From Candidatus Absconditabacterales bacterium (lineage in GTDB: Bacteria > Patescibacteriota > Gracilibacteria > Absconditabacterales > Absconditicoccaceae): DNA of 11,533 nucleotides. The notes under the pieces are model-generated. The model did no database searches, had not been told where the DNA came from, and saw only the letters and a list, made by a program, of their open reading frames with translations. The stretch lies in NCBI GenBank assembly GCA_023228925.1, contig JALOAF010000029.1, positions 1-11,533 of the forward strand, read 5' to 3'. This document shows, one piece after another, positions 3,209 through 11,533 of the stretch; within the stretch, counting starts at the first letter, position 1, and each line of letters opens with the position of its first letter. The position numbers were made by a program, and so were the translations under genes.

Positions 3209-4018
3209 CTAATAATCAACTACTCTTCTTCCAAATTTAAACGTTTTTTTTATTTTCTCATCATTATCATTGCTATTACAATTTGATTTATATATACCAA
3301 TAAAACAATTTTTACCCATAAGAACTATTTCATGAGGAGAAAGCCCTAAAAATTCTCCCACTTCTTCAATCGATTCAAAACCATTACGGTTTTTTCTTTC
3401 ATTAATAAAATTATCAGTATTATCCAAATCAAAAAATTCAAGTATAAAGAGAATATCTTTTCCTGCATTATTCAAATCTGTTTTTTTAATATCAATTTGT
3501 TTATTATCAGCAAGAAGTTCTTCAGTTTTTTCCTCAAACGGATTATTTTTTTCAAAAGAAAGGTCTAATCCTTTAAAAAATTGACTAGTTTTTTTTAAAA
3601 ACTTTATAACATTTTTAATATCTTCTAAATCAAGCATATTCATATAAATCTTTTGATTTTCAATTAAAAAAAACCTGCTACTACCATCGTGTTCAATATT
3701 CAAATCAAAAAGAATTTCAAATTTACGAAATTCAGGGTCAGCAAATATTGCTTTCCAATATATTCCTCTTGTGGTAATTGCCAAACCCTCTTTTCCACTT
3801 CCAAATAAAGTATCATCATAAAAGCCAAGTAAATGCTCTTCTTTTTGCAAAAACACAAATCTTTCTCTAGCAATTGCGAATTTTTTCCATGGAATATTTG
3901 GATATATATAAAATCTATTAACAGGAAATACATTTTTATAAAAGAAATTTATAATATTTTCAATTTTTTCATCAACTTGTTTATTAATGTATTTATTGAA
4001 TTTCTTTGCTTTATCCAT
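3209..4018 (-). CDS. PH-like plus helix-hairpin-helix protein with GRRVVDY tail
   Basis: A 269-aa protein counted from the ATG at 4018, which lies 1 nt after the stop of the preceding DUF1257-like gene; a GTG at 4030 would add 4 residues. Residues ~51-141 form a beta-rich domain carrying D-D-T-x-F-G-S-x-K-E-G and T-T-R-G-I-Y-W-K (82-89). These resemble bacterial PH-like domains in which a 'T-x-x-G-I-Y' strand is typical. A charged linker follows. Residues ~186-241 resemble the T2SS-K/ComEA type helix-hairpin-helix, with F-E-S-I-E-E-V-G-E-F-L-G-L. The protein ends in F-G-R-R-V-V-D-Y. The same domain order and tail occur in the gene at 4737-5618. No enzyme motif is visible, so it is probably an adaptor or scaffold of the cluster. 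There is no signal peptide or membrane segment. Confidence 0.75.
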   Translation of the reverse strand: MDKAKKFNKYINKQVDEKIENIINFFYKNVFPVNRFYIYPNIPWKKFAIARERFVFLQKEEHLLGFYDDTLFGSGKEGLAITTRGIYWKAIFADPEFRKFEILFDLNIEHDGSSRFFLIENQKIYMNMLDLEDIKNVIKFLKKTSQFFKGLDLSFEKNNPFEEKTEELLADNKQIDIKKTDLNNAGKDILFILEFFDLDNTDNFINERKNRNGFESIEEVGEFLGLSPHEIVLMGKNCFIGIYKSNCNSNDNDEKIKKTFKFGRRVVDY

Positions 4019-4019
4019 G

Positions 4020-4727
4020 CTAATCAACACTTACCGTAAGAATTATTGTATTATCTTCCAATCTTTCCTCGTTTTCAATTTTATAATTTTGTTTATCCAG
4101 TTTTTCAATAACATTATTATAAGTATGTTGTTGAACTTTTTCTTTATAAATTCTCATTATATCAGTAAGACTTTTATAGATTTCAGGAAGTTTTGTTTCA
4201 TCTTTTACAGTTACTGAATAAAACCCTGTCGAATTTTTAATAAATTCAAGTTGTGTTTCAACAGTATTAACTAAAATACCATTATCTTCAACCATATATT
4301 CAAGACCGATTTTTTTTAAAGTATTCAAGAGCATTTTTTCATCAGTAAAAATTGTCGGAAATGTCCTGATATTTTTTTGAATATTTATATCAGCTGAGAT
4401 TTTTCTGCCAAAACCTTGTGAAATATCGTTTAAAATCCTATCAATATCTTGTTTAGGAATTGAACGATCCAAACAAATATTCCATACACCATCGATTAAA
4501 TCCCAGAAAAAATAATTATTTTTTCCATTATAATGAGATTTATAACTCTGACCAAATCTTTTAATATCAAATCCAGATTTTTTAACAAGTTTGATAAGTT
4601 CAGAAGAGTTTTTAACTCCAACCGGAATTTTAATCTGAGAACTTTCAACAAACTGATTAAAACTTTCTTCACCCATCATTATTCTAAGAGCGATTGCAAC
4701 CGGAATCATAGCAAGTGATACAGACAT
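4020..4727 (-). CDS. DUF1257 (Ycf35)-like protein, copy A
   Basis: A 235-aa protein. Residues ~125-235 have the layout I associate with DUF1257/Ycf35: L-L-x-T-L-K-K-I-G-L, a central strand, then V-Q-Q-H-T-Y-x-x-V-x-x-x-L near residue 198 and a final strand N-E-E-x-L-E-D-N-T-I-I-L-T-V. The N-terminal half has a similar helix/strand pattern (K-K-S-G-F-D-I at 49-55) and may be a divergent second copy of the fold. Residues 3-18 are hydrophobic (V-S-L-A-M-I-P-V-A-I-A-L-R), perhaps a buried or membrane-contacting helix. Ycf35 occurs in plastids and cyanobacteria; its function is not established. The start has a strong AGGAGG site with 5-nt spacing, and that site overlaps the stop codon of the previous gene. 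Clearly paralogous to the gene at 5631-6353. Confidence 0.7.
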   Translation of the reverse strand: MSVSLAMIPVAIALRIMMGEESFNQFVESSQIKIPVGVKNSSELIKLVKKSGFDIKRFGQSYKSHYNGKNNYFFWDLIDGVWNICLDRSIPKQDIDRILNDISQGFGRKISADINIQKNIRTFPTIFTDEKMLLNTLKKIGLEYMVEDNGILVNTVETQLEFIKNSTGFYSVTVKDETKLPEIYKSLTDIMRIYKEKVQQHTYNNVIEKLDKQNYKIENEERLEDNTIILTVSVD

Positions 4728-4736
4728 AATATCCTC

Positions 4737-5618
4737 CTAATAATCAACAATCCTTCTACCATTAAAAGAAATTGAATCAGATTTATTTTTTATATCCCCA
4801 TTTGAAATAATATTGTTTTCTATATAAAATTTTTCAGAAAGCTTCCGGATATTATGAGGTTTTAAATCAATGAATTCTCCAACCTGTTCAATACTTGTAA
4901 AAATCCTTCCTTCCTCTCTAGCCTGCATTATTTTTTCAACTTTATCAATATTCATACCATCAGAAAAAAGAATAATATCAGGATCACATTTTAAAATATT
5001 CATTTTTTTTATCTTAATCTTTTTAAAAGAATCATCTTCAAAAAACTCAGGCATTTCATAAAAATCATACCATTTTTGTTCTTCATCTTCTGGATTCAAT
5101 CTAATTAAATCTTTCTGTATTTTGCCTCTTACAATAAGATCTTTAATATACTTAAAGTCCCATGGACCATGTATTTTACCTTTTATTGAAACAAGATATT
5201 TTCTATTGAAATTTTTATTTCTATATTCTTCAGTGTAAATATTAATTAACCTACAAAGATTTTCAGCATTTGATCTTTTAATATTAGAAATATGAATTCC
5301 ACCATCTGATAAATTCAGTTTTAACAAGGATTTATCAAAATCAAACCATACTTTTTCTTTTAATTTTTTGAAAGGTTCAAAATGATATTTAGTCTTATAT
5401 TTCCAATAAATTCCTCTTGTAGAAAGAACAAAATATTCAAATTCACCATATTTGTTTTTAAAAATATATATAATTAATGAAGTTTCATAGAAAGTTTCAG
5501 GTTGATAAAAATCATCAATTTCAAAATTTAAACTTTTGTCAATATAAGGATAAACATGGAAATACTGCTCTTTTTCCAGCAATTGTTTTAAATTCCATAC
5601 CATTGTCTCTTTTTTCAT
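4737..5618 (-). CDS. PH-like, GYF and helix-hairpin-helix protein with GRRIVDY tail
   Basis: A 293-aa protein. Residues ~15-130 form a beta-rich PH-like domain with S-T-R-G-I-Y-W-K at 66-73, the same strand as in the 3209-4018 protein. Residues ~140-193 look like a GYF_2 (DUF4339) domain: Y-L-V-S-x-x-G-K-x-x-G-P-W, a helix, L-I-V-R-G-K-I, then W-Y at the end. GYF_2 domains usually bind short peptides. Residues ~210-266 are a helix-hairpin-helix of the T2SS-K type, with A-R-E-E-G-R-I-F-T-S-I-E-Q-V-G-E-F. The C terminus is N-G-R-R-I-V-D-Y. The paralogue lacks the GYF domain, so this domain was gained or lost after duplication. ATG at 5618 has AAAGGA 7 nt upstream. It follows the first DUF1257-like gene by 12 nt and precedes the second by 9 nt. 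Confidence 0.75.
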   Translation of the reverse strand: MKKETMVWNLKQLLEKEQYFHVYPYIDKSLNFEIDDFYQPETFYETSLIIYIFKNKYGEFEYFVLSTRGIYWKYKTKYHFEPFKKLKEKVWFDFDKSLLKLNLSDGGIHISNIKRSNAENLCRLINIYTEEYRNKNFNRKYLVSIKGKIHGPWDFKYIKDLIVRGKIQKDLIRLNPEDEEQKWYDFYEMPEFFEDDSFKKIKIKKMNILKCDPDIILFSDGMNIDKVEKIMQAREEGRIFTSIEQVGEFIDLKPHNIRKLSEKFYIENNIISNGDIKNKSDSISFNGRRIVDY

Positions 5619-5630
5619 TTAAAAATCCTT

Positions 5631-6353
5631 TTATCCAACATTAATAGTAATAATTATAGTATTATCAATATTTTTTTCTTCATTTTCAATTTTATATCCA
5701 CTCTCAACCAATTTAGATTTAACATTTTTATATGAAATATTCTGCACATTTTTTCTATAATCATCATCAATCATTTTAAAAACAGTATACACTTCCTTAA
5801 TATCTTCATCTTTTTCAAAAACCAAAAAATAAGGACCATTTTCAGCTTTTTCAAAACCAAGAACAATATTACCAGTCCTACATTTAAAAGAATAATCATT
5901 AAAATCATAAGGATTTAACCTGAATTTTTTTAATGAATCAACAAGAATATCTTTATCTCTAAATTCAGTTATATATCTTGATTTTCTTGAAAGAAATTCA
6001 CCAACATTTGTATTAGTGTCAAAAAGCTTTCTACCACAAGATTTTTCAATTTTCAACAAAACATCTTTTATAAGATTTTCATCATCATAAACTGAAAAAC
6101 TTGCATAATATTTACCAAGAATTTTATCCCAGAAAAAAAAAGTTTTTAATGAAGGAATTTCCGTTTTATAACTCCTGCCAACCTTCTCAATATTAAAACC
6201 AGATTTTTTAACAAAACTAATTAAATCAGATTCAAATCTAATATTTGATTCAATTCTATTTTGATTATTATTTATAAACTCATCAAGACCTTTTTTACCC
6301 AGAGTAACTCTAACAGCCAGAAAAACAGGAACCATCCATAAACTAACCGACAT
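5631..6353 (-). CDS. DUF1257 (Ycf35)-like protein, copy B
   Basis: A 240-aa paralogue of the 4020-4727 protein. Shared features: the start M-S-V-S-L-x-M-x-P-V; K-K-S-G-F-x-I at 49-55; F-F-W-D at 73-76; C-G-R-K-L near 106; and the end Y-K-I-E-N-E-E followed by D-N-T-I-I. The C-terminal half carries the DUF1257-like pattern. It is the first gene of the tight array and is preceded by AAGGAG, 8 nt from the ATG. No convincing promoter was found in the repeat-filled spacer upstream, so transcription may continue from the AAA+ gene or start within the spacer. No catalytic motif is visible, and I cannot give a reaction. Confidence 0.7.
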   Translation of the reverse strand: MSVSLWMVPVFLAVRVTLGKKGLDEFINNNQNRIESNIRFESDLISFVKKSGFNIEKVGRSYKTEIPSLKTFFFWDKILGKYYASFSVYDDENLIKDVLLKIEKSCGRKLFDTNTNVGEFLSRKSRYITEFRDKDILVDSLKKFRLNPYDFNDYSFKCRTGNIVLGFEKAENGPYFLVFEKDEDIKEVYTVFKMIDDDYRKNVQNISYKNVKSKLVESGYKIENEEKNIDNTIIITINVG

Positions 6354-8399: not shown

Positions 8400-8464
8400 A
8401 AAAAAAAAGCAGATCCCGGCTCAGAATCATACCGGGATGACAATTTTTTATATAATCTGCTTTT
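8400..8464 (-). terminator. Nested palindrome, probable terminator of the nucleotidase gene
   Basis: The outer arms AAAAGCAGAT (8405-8414) and ATCTGCTTTT (8455-8464) are perfect 10-bp complements. Inside, ATCCCGG (8413-8419) pairs with CCGGGAT (8432-8438). On the minus strand the structure ends in nine T (8400-8408), as in an intrinsic terminator. On the plus strand the inner hairpin is followed by AATTTTTT, so it could also work in that direction. It is a copy of the dispersed repeat at 6421-6485. Confidence 0.6.
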
Positions 8465-8465
8465 A

Positions 8466-8580
8466 TATTGTTTTTGCCCTGTTATTATAAAGCTTTAATA
8501 TTGTTTTTGCCCTGTTATTATAAAGCTTTAATATTGTTTTTGCCCTGTTATTATAAAGCTTTCATACTGCTTTAGCACTG
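8466..8580. repeat. 33-bp tandem repeat, three copies plus a decayed fourth
   Basis: The unit starts TATTGTTTTTGCCCTG and includes the palindrome AAAGCTTT. Copies begin at 8466, 8499 and 8532, identical in those stretches. A fourth, TACTGCTTTAGCACTG at 8565, has 4 mismatches in 16. Each of the three units contains TATAAT on the minus strand. The array lies between the nucleotidase stop codon and the terminator. There are no unique spacers, so it is not a CRISPR. Confidence 0.85.
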
Positions 8581-8583
8581 CTT

Positions 8584-10071
8584 CTATTTAATCACTATCC
8601 TGCCATCTTTTTTGGGACTAATCTTTTGCATTTTTCTGATATATTCAGTAAGAATATCTTTCAATGGTTTTCCAGTAACATAGTTTTCAATCTCTTCACA
8701 TTCTTTAAAAAGATAACCATCTCCACCATTTTTCATATAATCATTTAGAGCAAATGTATATTCTTTATTTTCTTCTATAGCTTTGCCATTACTGGTAAAT
8801 AATTTAACTTTTTCATTTTCCAAATCATACTCAACTTTAATTCCAGCAACTTGTAAAAAAGCTCCTGATAATTTAGGAATTTTTAAAGCCTGTAAGGAAT
8901 TACCAAAATTCTCAATAAGTTTTTTGCCAGTTACTTTTATAACCATAGCATTGTTTTTAAACGGAAGTACTTTTTCAACATCCGCAGCACTTATAGCACC
9001 TTTATTTAACGAAGACCGAATTCCTCCTCCATTCATAACAGCAAAATCAGCTTTCGAAAGATATAATAAAGATTCACTTATAACATTCCCAATTGCAGTT
9101 TCACCCATTCTCACATCTTTTTTACCAGCAGGAAAAACATCTAAAGCTTCTCCAACAATCTGAGATGAAATAGCAATAACTTTTTGTTCTGCCACATCAA
9201 CTATATTTTTAATAACCTGATTTTCACCCCAGGATTTAAGAGGAATAGCAAGATCAGAATTATAATATTTCATAACAGTTTTATCATTAACTTTTTCATA
9301 ATAAGCTCTTAAAAAACCTAATCTTTCACCATAAGCACCAGCCTGATTCACAATTGTATTATTAAATACAGGAGGTACTTTAAGTAAAGTGTGAGTATGA
9401 CCACCAATAATAATATCAAGATTGGAAAATTCCTGCGCAATTTTAACATCTTCCTCAAATCCAATATGCGAAAGAAGAATGCTTACATCGTATTTATCAC
9501 GATTTTGAGAAAGAATCTTTCTAACTTCATTCTGAGGAAGTGATACAAAAACACCCGCTTCATCAAGACCTAAAGCAAATCTTTTAATCTCAGGAGTAGT
9601 AACTCCCATAATAAGGACTCTAAGATTATTAACTTCTTTAATAATGAAAGGCTGATAAACTCTCTTTCCTCTACTATAAACATTAGCACAAACAATTTTA
9701 TCTTCAAAAGGAGCAAGTATTTTTTTCATATTTTCATAACCATAATCAAATTCATGATTACCAGGGACAATTGCAGTAAATGGAATTTGTTTATATATTT
9801 CTACAACAGTTTCACCGGTATCAAAATTAGCATAAAGAAAACCAGATATAAAATCTCCGGCATCAAGAACAAGAGTATCAGGATACAAAGATGTAATATG
9901 TTCTATTTTTTTGGCAATTCTAGCGATTCCACCAATCTCAACTCCATCTTTATCTATTTTAGGAAGAATATGCCCATGAAAATCATTTGTATGCAATATT
10001 CTAACAAAATCACCAGAAAAACAAACAATACAAAAAACATAAACAATAATTAAAAAACTAAATTTTTTCAT
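8584..10071 (-). CDS. Secreted 5'-nucleotidase / 2',3'-cyclic phosphodiesterase family (UshA-like)
   Basis: A 495-aa protein; the ATG at 10071 follows GTGAGG by 6 nt, and a GTG at 10083 is in frame but less likely. Residues 1-19 are a signal peptide: K-K, a hydrophobic core, then C-F-S before G-D. The metallophosphoesterase domain follows: T-N-D-F-H-G-H (28-34), D-A-G-D (70-73), G-N-H-E (104-107), S-H-I-G (201-204) and G-G-H-T-H (223-227), which bind two metal ions. The C-terminal nucleotide-binding domain has N-G-G-G-I-R (347-352) and N-D-Y-M-x-x-G-G-D-G-Y (443-453), the adenine-stacking region. Length and order match UshA/CpdB family members, which remove phosphate from nucleotides outside the cytoplasm for salvage; exact substrate is not readable. 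It ends just before the 33-bp repeat and has its own extended -10 promoter. The recombinase transcript can also read into it. Confidence 0.93.
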   Translation of the reverse strand: MKKFSFLIIVYVFCIVCFSGDFVRILHTNDFHGHILPKIDKDGVEIGGIARIAKKIEHITSLYPDTLVLDAGDFISGFLYANFDTGETVVEIYKQIPFTAIVPGNHEFDYGYENMKKILAPFEDKIVCANVYSRGKRVYQPFIIKEVNNLRVLIMGVTTPEIKRFALGLDEAGVFVSLPQNEVRKILSQNRDKYDVSILLSHIGFEEDVKIAQEFSNLDIIIGGHTHTLLKVPPVFNNTIVNQAGAYGERLGFLRAYYEKVNDKTVMKYYNSDLAIPLKSWGENQVIKNIVDVAEQKVIAISSQIVGEALDVFPAGKKDVRMGETAIGNVISESLLYLSKADFAVMNGGGIRSSLNKGAISAADVEKVLPFKNNAMVIKVTGKKLIENFGNSLQALKIPKLSGAFLQVAGIKVEYDLENEKVKLFTSNGKAIEENKEYTFALNDYMKNGGDGYLFKECEEIENYVTGKPLKDILTEYIRKMQKISPKKDGRIVIK

Positions 10072-10110
10072 AAAAAACCTCACTTTTTTTTATACAAGCA
10101 TTTTTCAAAT

Positions 10111-10177: not shown

Positions 10178-10205
10178 TTTACTTTTACCTTTTTTATGCT
10201 ATAAT
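10178..10205 (+). promoter_or_regulatory. Plus-strand promoter pointing into the invertible segment
   Basis: TTTACT (10178-10183), 16 bp, then TATAAT (10200-10205) preceded by TGC, a perfect extended -10. Transcription would begin near 10212 and run through the left inverted repeat at 10249. In the present orientation this gives RNA antisense to the recombinase gene. No plus-strand gene follows for 1.1 kb, which makes the promoter puzzling unless the segment inverts. Confidence 0.5.
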
Positions 10206-10248
10206 ATATATAAGATAAACTGAAAACAACCATTAACAATAGCTTTTT

Positions 10249-10278
10249 TATGTCCGCAATGTATAAATTGTAGTCATA
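10249..10278. repeat. Left 30-bp inverted repeat (recombination site)
   Basis: Matches the reverse complement of 11351-11380 at 29 of 30 positions; the difference is the fifth base (T here, A in the other site's complement). It is itself nearly palindromic around the 6-bp centre GTATAA. It lies 7 nt beyond the recombinase stop codon with no terminator between. Confidence 0.85.
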
Positions 10279-10285
10279 AGTATAA

Positions 10286-11191
10286 TTAAATTAATTTATC
10301 TATATATTTTTCCGGAGCACATTTCATTCTATTAATATTGTGTGCATATATCAATGTAGTATTTATATTATTATGTCTTGCAAGAATTTGTGCTTCCTGA
10401 ATTGTAGCACCACCAAGAAGACATAAAGTAATTGCTGTATGCCTTAAACTATGAGCTGAATAATCTTTGCTTATAAGTCCTATTTGAGAAAGAGAATTTT
10501 TCACAATTCTTGATAAAGACCTTGTCGTCAACGGTTTTAAGTAATTTTTTCTCGAAAACGAAAAGAAAATCGCTCCATTATCATCAATTGGTATTTGTAA
10601 ACTATTGAGTTTCTTTTTGTATTCAACTATCATACTATAAGTTTTTTTAGTTAAAAAGACAAATTCATCCTTGCCTGATCTTCCTTTGCCATGAATATAA
10701 AGTATATGATAATCACCTGTTTTTTTTATATCTGAAAAATTTAATCTTTTTACTTCAATAGTTCTCAATCCAGTTCTTATCATAAGATTTATTATGGTAT
10801 AATCTCTCATTCCAATACTTGTATCTTTACATAATACAGAATTAAGTTTTTTTATCTGTTCAACTGACAATGTTTTTTTTCTGAATCCTTTTGCCTGTGA
10901 TTTAATTTTTATTTTTGAAGTAATATCATCACTATAACCTTCGTGATAACACCATGAAAAAAATTTTTTTAATATAACAATGTAATTTGTTATTGTATAA
11001 TCGGACAATTCTTTAATTTTTAAAAAATCAATATATTCAATTCCTAAACTTGGTTCAGGAATTTTAATATCATTCTTTTTAAAAAATTCCATGAATTGCT
11101 TTAAACTTCCCATATAAGTTTTTTTTGAATTATTTTTAACCGAGATATTATTGAGAAACTCCTCACAAAGATATTCAATATCTTTTTTCAT
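10286..11191 (-). CDS. Tyrosine recombinase (XerC/D-like), putative DNA invertase
   Basis: A 301-aa protein of normal length for a XerC/D-type recombinase. The N-terminal SAM-like core-binding domain is at ~1-95, with T-I-T-N-Y-I-V-I-L-K-K-F-F at 66-78. The catalytic domain holds the complete set: R143 (T-G-L-R), K169 (H-G-K-G), H247 and R250 (H-S-L-R), H273 (A-R-H) and Y282 (I-Y-A-H). So it should be active in cutting and rejoining DNA through a 3'-phosphotyrosine. It starts with ATG after an AAGGAGAG site. Enclosure by inverted 30-bp sites with a 6-bp centre suggests it inverts its own segment. The stop is 7 nt from the left site, so its transcript runs out of the segment toward the nucleotidase now, and would run toward cheW after inversion. 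It could instead be a relict integrase of a lost element. Confidence 0.92.
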   Translation of the reverse strand: MKKDIEYLCEEFLNNISVKNNSKKTYMGSLKQFMEFFKKNDIKIPEPSLGIEYIDFLKIKELSDYTITNYIVILKKFFSWCYHEGYSDDITSKIKIKSQAKGFRKKTLSVEQIKKLNSVLCKDTSIGMRDYTIINLMIRTGLRTIEVKRLNFSDIKKTGDYHILYIHGKGRSGKDEFVFLTKKTYSMIVEYKKKLNSLQIPIDDNGAIFFSFSRKNYLKPLTTRSLSRIVKNSLSQIGLISKDYSAHSLRHTAITLCLLGGATIQEAQILARHNNINTTLIYAHNINRMKCAPEKYIDKLI

Positions 11192-11249
11192 ATACTCTCC
11201 TTATTCCTACAACTAACCAAACATTTTCAGTAAACTTCAATTTGTAATT

Positions 11250-11318
11250 AAACCTAAAATACGATTAATCTAAATTAATATTTGGTTCATATTACAATCT
11301 TTTAGGTTTTATTTCCAA
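11250..11318 (-). promoter_or_regulatory. Candidate recombinase promoter with 10-bp inverted repeat
   Basis: AAACCTAAAA (11250-11259) and TTTTAGGTTT (11300-11309) are perfect complements 40 bp apart. On the minus strand a weak promoter, TTGGAA (11313-11318), 18 bp, TAATAT (11289-11294), places the second arm inside the -35/-10 spacer, as an operator would. Both promoter boxes match consensus at 4 of 6. The paired arms may bind a repressor, possibly the recombinase itself. Confidence 0.35.
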
Positions 11319-11338
11319 TTTCATCTCAAACAAGTCCT

Positions 11339-11344
11339 TATAAA
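11339..11344 (+). promoter_or_regulatory. Weak candidate -10 facing cheW
   Basis: TATAAA, 5 of 6 to consensus, just inside the right inverted repeat, with no recognisable -35. If used, transcription would begin near the first base of the right repeat, so the near-palindrome would lie in the cheW leader. I regard cheW expression in this orientation as doubtful. Confidence 0.2.
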
Positions 11345-11350
11345 CCTTTT

Positions 11351-11380
11351 TATGACTACAATTTATACATTGCGGTCATA
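11351..11380. repeat. Right 30-bp inverted repeat (recombination site)
   Basis: Partner of 10249-10278. Within the site, TATGAC pairs with GTCATA at the ends and CAAT with ATTG inside, flanking the 6-bp centre TTATAC: 12 of 15 positions are symmetric. Two 12-bp arms round a 6-bp centre is the plan of Xer/dif-type sites. The right end lies 13 nt from the ribosome site of cheW. Confidence 0.85.
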
Positions 11381-11404
11381 CAATAAAAATAAAAAGGAGG
11401 CAAA

Positions 11405-11533
11405 ATGGGTCTCAATAAGTTCCTAACATTTTCACTTGATGGGGAAATTTACGGACTGCCAATTCTCAGAGTACAAGAAATAATCGGGATGATGACAGTT
11501 ACAAAATTTCCAAATTCTTCAGATTACATTAGA
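11405..11533 (+). CDS. cheW: CheW chemotaxis adaptor (partial, N terminus)
   Basis: The first 43 codons are in the window; the rest lies beyond the edge. F-L-T-F-S-L-D-G-E-I-Y-G-L-P-I, then V-Q-E-I-I-G, then T-K-F-P is the canonical CheW start: strand, Y-G-[IL]-x-I-x-x-V-x-E-I and the P before the next strand. CheW joins chemoreceptors to the CheA kinase under the inner membrane. The ATG has a strong AAGGAGG site (11394-11400). Codon use here is less extremely A/T-ending than in its neighbours. It is the only plus-strand gene and starts 24 nt after the right inverted repeat, so its promoter must lie in or beyond the repeat, probably on the invertible segment or left of it. A CheW domain at the start of a longer protein is possible. 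Confidence 0.85.
   Translation, partial: MGLNKFLTFSLDGEIYGLPILRVQEIIGMMTVTKFPNSSDYIR

Follow-up and report, generated by a model that had tools for sequence, protein, structure and literature searches.

Most known DNA inversion switches act on surface structures. The Hin enzyme is a serine recombinase, and the segment that it inverts carries the promoter of a flagellin operon. According to a 2018 paper (PMC5903667), recombinases occasionally lie inside the invertible segment, with Hin named (966 bp in Salmonella), and in Providencia stuartii an 844-bp putative invertible segment encloses a recombinase ORF beside a fimbrial locus. It also reports that Clostridium thermocellum and Anaerotignum propionicum carry invertible sites close to chemotaxis genes. 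In the C. difficile cwpV switch, the promoter is located outside the inverted DNA, and the orientation decides whether transcription reaches the gene (PMC2784873). Further background on invertons is given in PMC11892184 and PMC11868660. No report of an invertible cheW was found, judged by titles and the starts of abstracts.

Here we describe a locus in a stretch of DNA of 11,533 nt, analysed as a whole and hereafter called the window, in which a XerD-like recombinase gene lies between two inverted sites and next to cheW. Its features are as follows.

8584 to 10083, minus strand: 5'-nucleotidase / metallophosphatase, the left neighbour, transcribed away from the cassette
10178 to 10205, plus strand: promoter-like sequence outside the segment and directed toward cheW (TTTACT, spacing of 16, TGC-TATAAT, an extended -10; a consensus match only)
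10250 to 10277, no strand assigned: left recombination site, 28 bp, a dif-like imperfect palindrome with an 11-6-11 or 10-8-10 layout
10286 to 11191, minus strand: intact XerD-like tyrosine recombinase of 301 amino acids (full ORF, profile matches, conserved residues)
11192 to 11351, no strand assigned: recombinase leader inside the segment, 160 bp, including a 21-nt inverted repeat (11239-11259 / 11300-11320)
11352 to 11379, no strand assigned: right recombination site, 28 bp, with the same core as the left site, inverted
11405 to 11533, plus strand: cheW, first 43 codons, running off the window (Pfam CheW, 6e-8 over the 43 codons)

The sites, the intact enzyme and their geometry are observed. 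Aligned as inverted repeats, the two 28-bp sites are identical at 27 of 28 positions, and they are enclosed in 34-nt inverted arms (10246-10279 / 11350-11383) that are complementary at 32 of 34 positions (94%). Each site is an imperfect palindrome; in the right one, the arms flank 6 bp and are complementary at 9 of 11 positions. The 28-bp 11-6-11 layout is that of dif. When the intergenic flanks were compared, the highest-scoring inverted repeat without gaps reached 29.0, whereas 2000 first-order Markov resamples of the same flanks reached a maximum of 19.5 (mean, 9.9). In addition, a degenerate pattern of the site matched only two places in the 11,533-nt window, the sites themselves, with 0 expected. 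A chance origin of the inverted repeat is thus ruled out. No third copy of the site was found in the window, even with up to 9 of 28 mismatches allowed, and no Rfam family matched at the gathering threshold. Two hallmarks by which invertons are recognized are present: near-identical inverted sites flank a segment of about 1.1 kb, and an intact site-specific recombinase is encoded inside it.

The preliminary description had reported a complete tyrosine recombinase between 30-bp inverted repeats (29/30), flanking genes that point outward, and cheW 24 nt from the right repeat. The 301-residue ORF between the 28-bp sites (27/28) confirms the first, the outward-pointing nucleotidase on the left and cheW on the right bear out the second, and the cheW start at 11405, 25 nt past the right 28-bp site, agrees with the third. 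Its further statement, that inverted sites around a tyrosine recombinase imply inversion, is supported by the established mechanism of these enzymes, from which it is deduced for this locus. The two copies of the 8-bp core have no mismatch when aligned as inverted repeats and two mismatches when aligned as direct repeats, so strand exchange should productively give inversion. Integration via direct att repeats was rejected, since the sites are inverted, with seven differences as direct repeats versus one as inverted repeats. Self-inversion would be the natural outcome of this cassette anatomy and its simplest reading. We therefore favour, with a probability of roughly 0.55, a self-inverting cassette, in which the recombinase would flip the 1.1-kb segment bearing its own gene, and cheW expression would be lower in the present orientation and higher in the flipped one.

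The genes on both sides of the cassette have some features of their own. The Shine-Dalgarno sequence of cheW (AAGGAGG) was found by eye at 11394-11400. In its 495-residue database form (P0121), the nucleotidase would start at about 10071. Between this gene and that of an AAA ATPase is a tandem array (8459-8580) of a 33-bp unit, with 3.7 copies and 93% matches. The AAA ATPase lies beside two tandem two-gene modules (3209-6353); its top NCBIfam hit, CDC48, is far under the cut-off. The genes at 5631-6353 and 4020-4727 are paralogues with 34% identity, and those at 4737-5618 and 3209-4030 have a common C-terminal part (33% over 98 residues). None of the three module proteins scanned had a Pfam match (4020-4727 was left out).

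The recombinase gene has a Shine-Dalgarno-like AAGGAG at 11202-11197 (by eye), and its stop codon is 8 nt from the left site. The protein matches Pfam Phage_integrase (E 8.1e-21), and its closest solved relatives by profile are XerD (5.1e-24), a XerC-like protein (4a8e) and XerA. Residues R143, K169, H247, R250, H273 and Y282 are invariant or at least 90% conserved among 33 aligned sequences, including that of the window; we take these to be the catalytic residues, with their places following the XerD alignment. The NCBIfam equivalog cut-offs for the canonical XerA (120 vs 220), XerC (99 vs 335), XerD (113 vs 330) and XerS (49 vs 267) were all missed, as were those for Fim-type tyrosine DNA invertases (23 bits vs 221, and 21 vs 222).

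Two other explanations are the main rivals of the self-inverting cassette: a resolution module, and a remnant that is no longer active. The best matches to XerA and XerD models and to solved XerD, as well as the 28-bp 11-6-11 layout of dif, would be expected if the gene derives from, or acts as, a Xer-type module for plasmid or chromosome dimer resolution. On this view, the inverted second copy of the site arose by duplication, and inversion, if it occurs, would be incidental and have no regulatory role. We regard this explanation as unlikely. A single site is enough for dimer resolution, whereas the recombinase gene here is enclosed by an inverted pair. The recombinase scores well under the curated cut-offs for all four Xer classes, and the GC skew is negative throughout the window without any sign of a terminus, only 154 bases being included to the right of the cassette.

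The relatives of the recombinase bear on the same question. The protein search yielded 4817 proteins at E ≤1e-3, including the window's own, and the best 120 of the 4817 were examined. Among the matches listed, Candidatus Muirbacterium halophilum provides the best named relative (a partial protein, 83%), followed by a Candidatus Muiribacteriota bacterium (53%), and an origin of the window in this phylum is therefore most likely. The recombinase P0002, with 83% identity, is on a contig of 2758 bases; clustering at 90% may conceal contigs on which it lies near cheW or the nucleotidase gene. In a 48-row tree drawn from the best 120 matches, which carried warnings about long branches and unusual composition, P0001-P0004 were separated from the other 44 rows with a branch support of 100/100. 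Identities were 35-41% for relatives on plasmids (20 listed of 736 records) and 27-46% for those listed from the virus collection, and a match at 1e-50 or better was present in 1 of 297 genomes of one phylum. The short contigs of several relatives hint at a multi-copy mobile element, but such contigs are common in metagenomes. Genes for a DnaB-like helicase or a ParA-like protein are near the recombinase in six of the eight relatives whose neighbours were read (L007, L008 and L009 by annotation, and L011, L044 and L097 by eye; not L006 or L010), as a resolution module would predict. In the window, however, no replication or partition genes are found beside the recombinase; its neighbours, the nucleotidase and cheW, are not plasmid genes and set the locus apart from plasmid XerD-like modules.

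We examined flanking repeats at 92 of 97 related loci, leaving out L001, L004, L005, L032 and L081 (partial match or contig edge). The virus collection supplied 85 of the 92 and plasmids 4; five had a short flank, and the identities, where given, are 27-46%. No flanking inverted repeat reached the window's score of 29 at any of the 92 loci. Inverted repeats scoring at least 14 were found at six of them (L097, 20.5; L044 and L065, 18; L007 and L017, 15; L009, 14), and direct repeats scoring at least 14 at 16 of the 92 (best, 21.5). Inverted sites on both sides of the gene are thus no common feature of the wider family, which counts against the self-inverting cassette. The site pattern of the window was absent from all 97 loci, the nearest match having 7 of 28 mismatches, and had no exact match in the viral contigs.

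Some of these loci have arrangements of their own. Three from the virus collection carry the recombinase between inverted repeats: L097 (1424-1446 / 2868-2890, 22/23), L044 (3717-3734 / 5273-5290, 18/18) and L065 (3373-3390 / 5261-5278, 18/18), with a ParA-like gene adjoining in L097 and L044 (by eye). In L029, a 48.9-kb viral contig, a row of four 11-6-11 palindromes (3657-3939) is located upstream of a recombinase with 41% identity, and may represent several recombination sites in an array. In L018 (1634 / 2661) and L026 (3871 / 4875), the recombinase is flanked by direct repeats that are imperfect and 35 and 39 bp long, respectively; if these are recombination sites, they would favour excision over inversion.

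The association of the recombinase with cheW may extend beyond the window. A search with the 43 cheW residues of the window, extended by padding to the full length, yielded six proteins. One of them, P0179, and the recombinase P0004 (53%) both come from Candidatus Muiribacteriota. Each of the two has a single contig, with a length of 26,325 bases in both cases, which is strong but indirect evidence that they share a contig. Such a match in length can also arise by chance: 19,757 is given both for the cheW protein P0182 (15 contigs) and for an unrelated plasmid of Flavobacterium. From the two 26,325-base entries, the recombinase-cheW linkage is therefore probably old and kept in a second Muiribacteriota. 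Among the 56 nucleotidase clusters listed, for each of which the longest contig is shown, a length of 26,325 does not occur. The divergences of the three genes are of a similar order (recombinase, 53%; cheW, 63% between P0179 and P0178, which is close to the cheW of the window; nucleotidase, 52-55%), as expected under vertical inheritance. This apparent vertical inheritance of the Muiribacteriota copies, like that of a housekeeping gene, is also a point in favour of a resolution module.

Among the cheW matches listed, P0177 (104 residues) is the only protein identical to the window's 43 residues. In the C-terminal half of CheW, it lacks about 43 residues, which the five other aligned proteins retain. 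P0177 is on two contigs, the longest of 14,308 bases, and the recombinase is on one contig of 11,600 bases. P0177 may reflect a deletion in cheW, or an effect of assembly close to the cassette.

The other main rival, which we consider improbable, is that the locus is an inactive remnant of an integrated plasmid, phage or cassette, and that cheW is transcribed through it from an outer promoter. The predominance of the virus collection (85/92), with 4 from plasmids, among the relatives tested would fit such an origin, and cheW could be transcribed by read-through from the outer promoter-like sequence. However, the ORF is intact, with a ribosome-binding sequence and with the active-site residues that are expected, and the sites, still identical at 27 of 28 positions, are inverted, whereas integration leaves direct repeats. 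Moreover, the linkage with cheW seems to persist in the relative with 53% identity, with nucleotidases comparably diverged at 52-55%, and persistence at this distance suggests selection rather than decay. Finally, in a further model, the recombinase does not recombine the sites but binds both as operators, and so represses transcription running across its gene and cheW. This model accords with each site being palindromic and beside the start or end of a gene, but is very improbable, as an identical asymmetric core in inverted orientation is needless for an operator pair and the recombinase keeps its active-site residues.

We also evaluated how inversion of the self-inverting cassette might change cheW expression. 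The sequence at 10178-10205 is the best promoter-like sequence of the intergenic flanks, and 3 of 1000 resamples of that region scored as high, an uncorrected figure for one of four stretches tested. The minus strand of the outer intergenic region was at background (435 of 1000 resamples as good), and no promoter above background was found on either strand of the 160-bp leader next to cheW (816 and 824 of 1000 as good). These results weaken the preliminary claim that no promoter of cheW can lie outside the segment. That the outer promoter-like sequence might drive cheW is a lead. In a simple scan, three sites inside the recombinase gene equal it at 10/12, two of them pointing at cheW on the plus strand (10686-10713 and 10974-11001), and a further extended -10 match is found inside the gene at 10795-10803. 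Over the whole region, promoter-like sites are not enriched (11 found vs 12.2 expected from shuffles). Use of such an internal site as a promoter would make the present orientation the on state of cheW, and would thus reverse the on/off assignment.

No intrinsic terminator that would turn cheW off in the present orientation was found in the present sequence, and inspection by eye revealed no hairpin with a U-run at the junctions of either orientation. The hairpin of the cheW leader folds moderately (z -1.9; 8 of 200 shuffles as good), and its site stays in both orientations. When the segment was inverted in silico, the recombinase gene came to lie on the plus strand. Its start codon was then 161 nt away from the left site's end, and its stop 61 nt before the cheW start, in the same direction. 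This geometry supports the plus-strand operon of recombinase and cheW that had been proposed for the flipped state, and the minus-strand gene, which reads leftward, accords with the proposal that its transcription at present exits toward the nucleotidase.

The self-inverting cassette would then work as follows. The recombinase would bind the two inverted 28-bp dif-like sites, synapse them and exchange strands in the shared core, and this exchange would flip the 1.1-kb segment together with the recombinase's own gene. In the present orientation, with the recombinase gene reading toward the nucleotidase, transcription from 10178-10205 would cross this gene in antisense before reaching cheW, and thus place a long antisense leader before it; the untranslated antisense RNA might speculatively be ended early, for example by Rho. 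In the flipped orientation, cheW would be co-transcribed behind a translated gene, because the outer promoter, the recombinase leader, the recombinase and cheW would share one direction and form a recombinase-cheW operon. The likely effect is that cheW is lower at present, and that cheW is higher and the recombinase more abundant after the flip. We infer from the anatomy that inversion occurs, that the outer promoter is used, and that cheW output changes in this direction.

A more far-reaching version, which is possible and on balance doubtful, is a long-lived, phylum-wide chemotaxis switch of the Muiribacteriota, in which a fixed outer promoter would produce either recombinase and cheW or antisense recombinase RNA, and a core taxis adaptor would be phase-variable. 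The on state would be self-limiting, because cheW-on cells would also make more recombinase. As an adaptor, CheW links receptors with the chemotaxis kinase; if the switch is true, an entire sensory pathway would be turned on or off in a fraction of the population, and the recombinase's own expression would be tied to the state created by flipping. We know of no culture from the candidate phylum Muiribacteriota.

The preliminary description had called a phase-variable chemotaxis adaptor unusual; it is less so than claimed, given the enclosed recombinases and the invertible sites beside chemotaxis genes in PMC5903667. The P. stuartii segment resembles the present cassette in that inverted repeats enclose a recombinase beside a regulated locus. 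It differs in its 14-bp imperfect repeats, in its fimbrial locus and in having been found by inversion read signatures. The sites in C. thermocellum and A. propionicum are likewise examples of DNA inversion beside chemotaxis components, but concern a methyl-accepting chemotaxis protein and components, not cheW, and no enclosed recombinase is mentioned in the passages on them. The cwpV switch shares a promoter outside the segment, for which the cassette has a candidate; however, its segment is without a gene and has a proposed orientation-specific intrinsic terminator, of which none was found in the cheW cassette. Hin shares the position of the recombinase gene within the segment that it inverts and a motility-related output, and differs in being a serine recombinase with the promoter within the segment. 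The XerD and XerA recombinases with dif, and the plasmid XerD-like enzymes, are alike in fold family by sequence and in the 28-bp site layout, whereas the recombinase here is under the XerA/C/D/S cut-offs and has two inverted sites around its gene. Taken together, the architecture and the chemotaxis association each have precedent, and the combination of a Xer-like enzyme, a dif-like inverted pair and the core adaptor cheW in the Muiribacteriota seems to be new.
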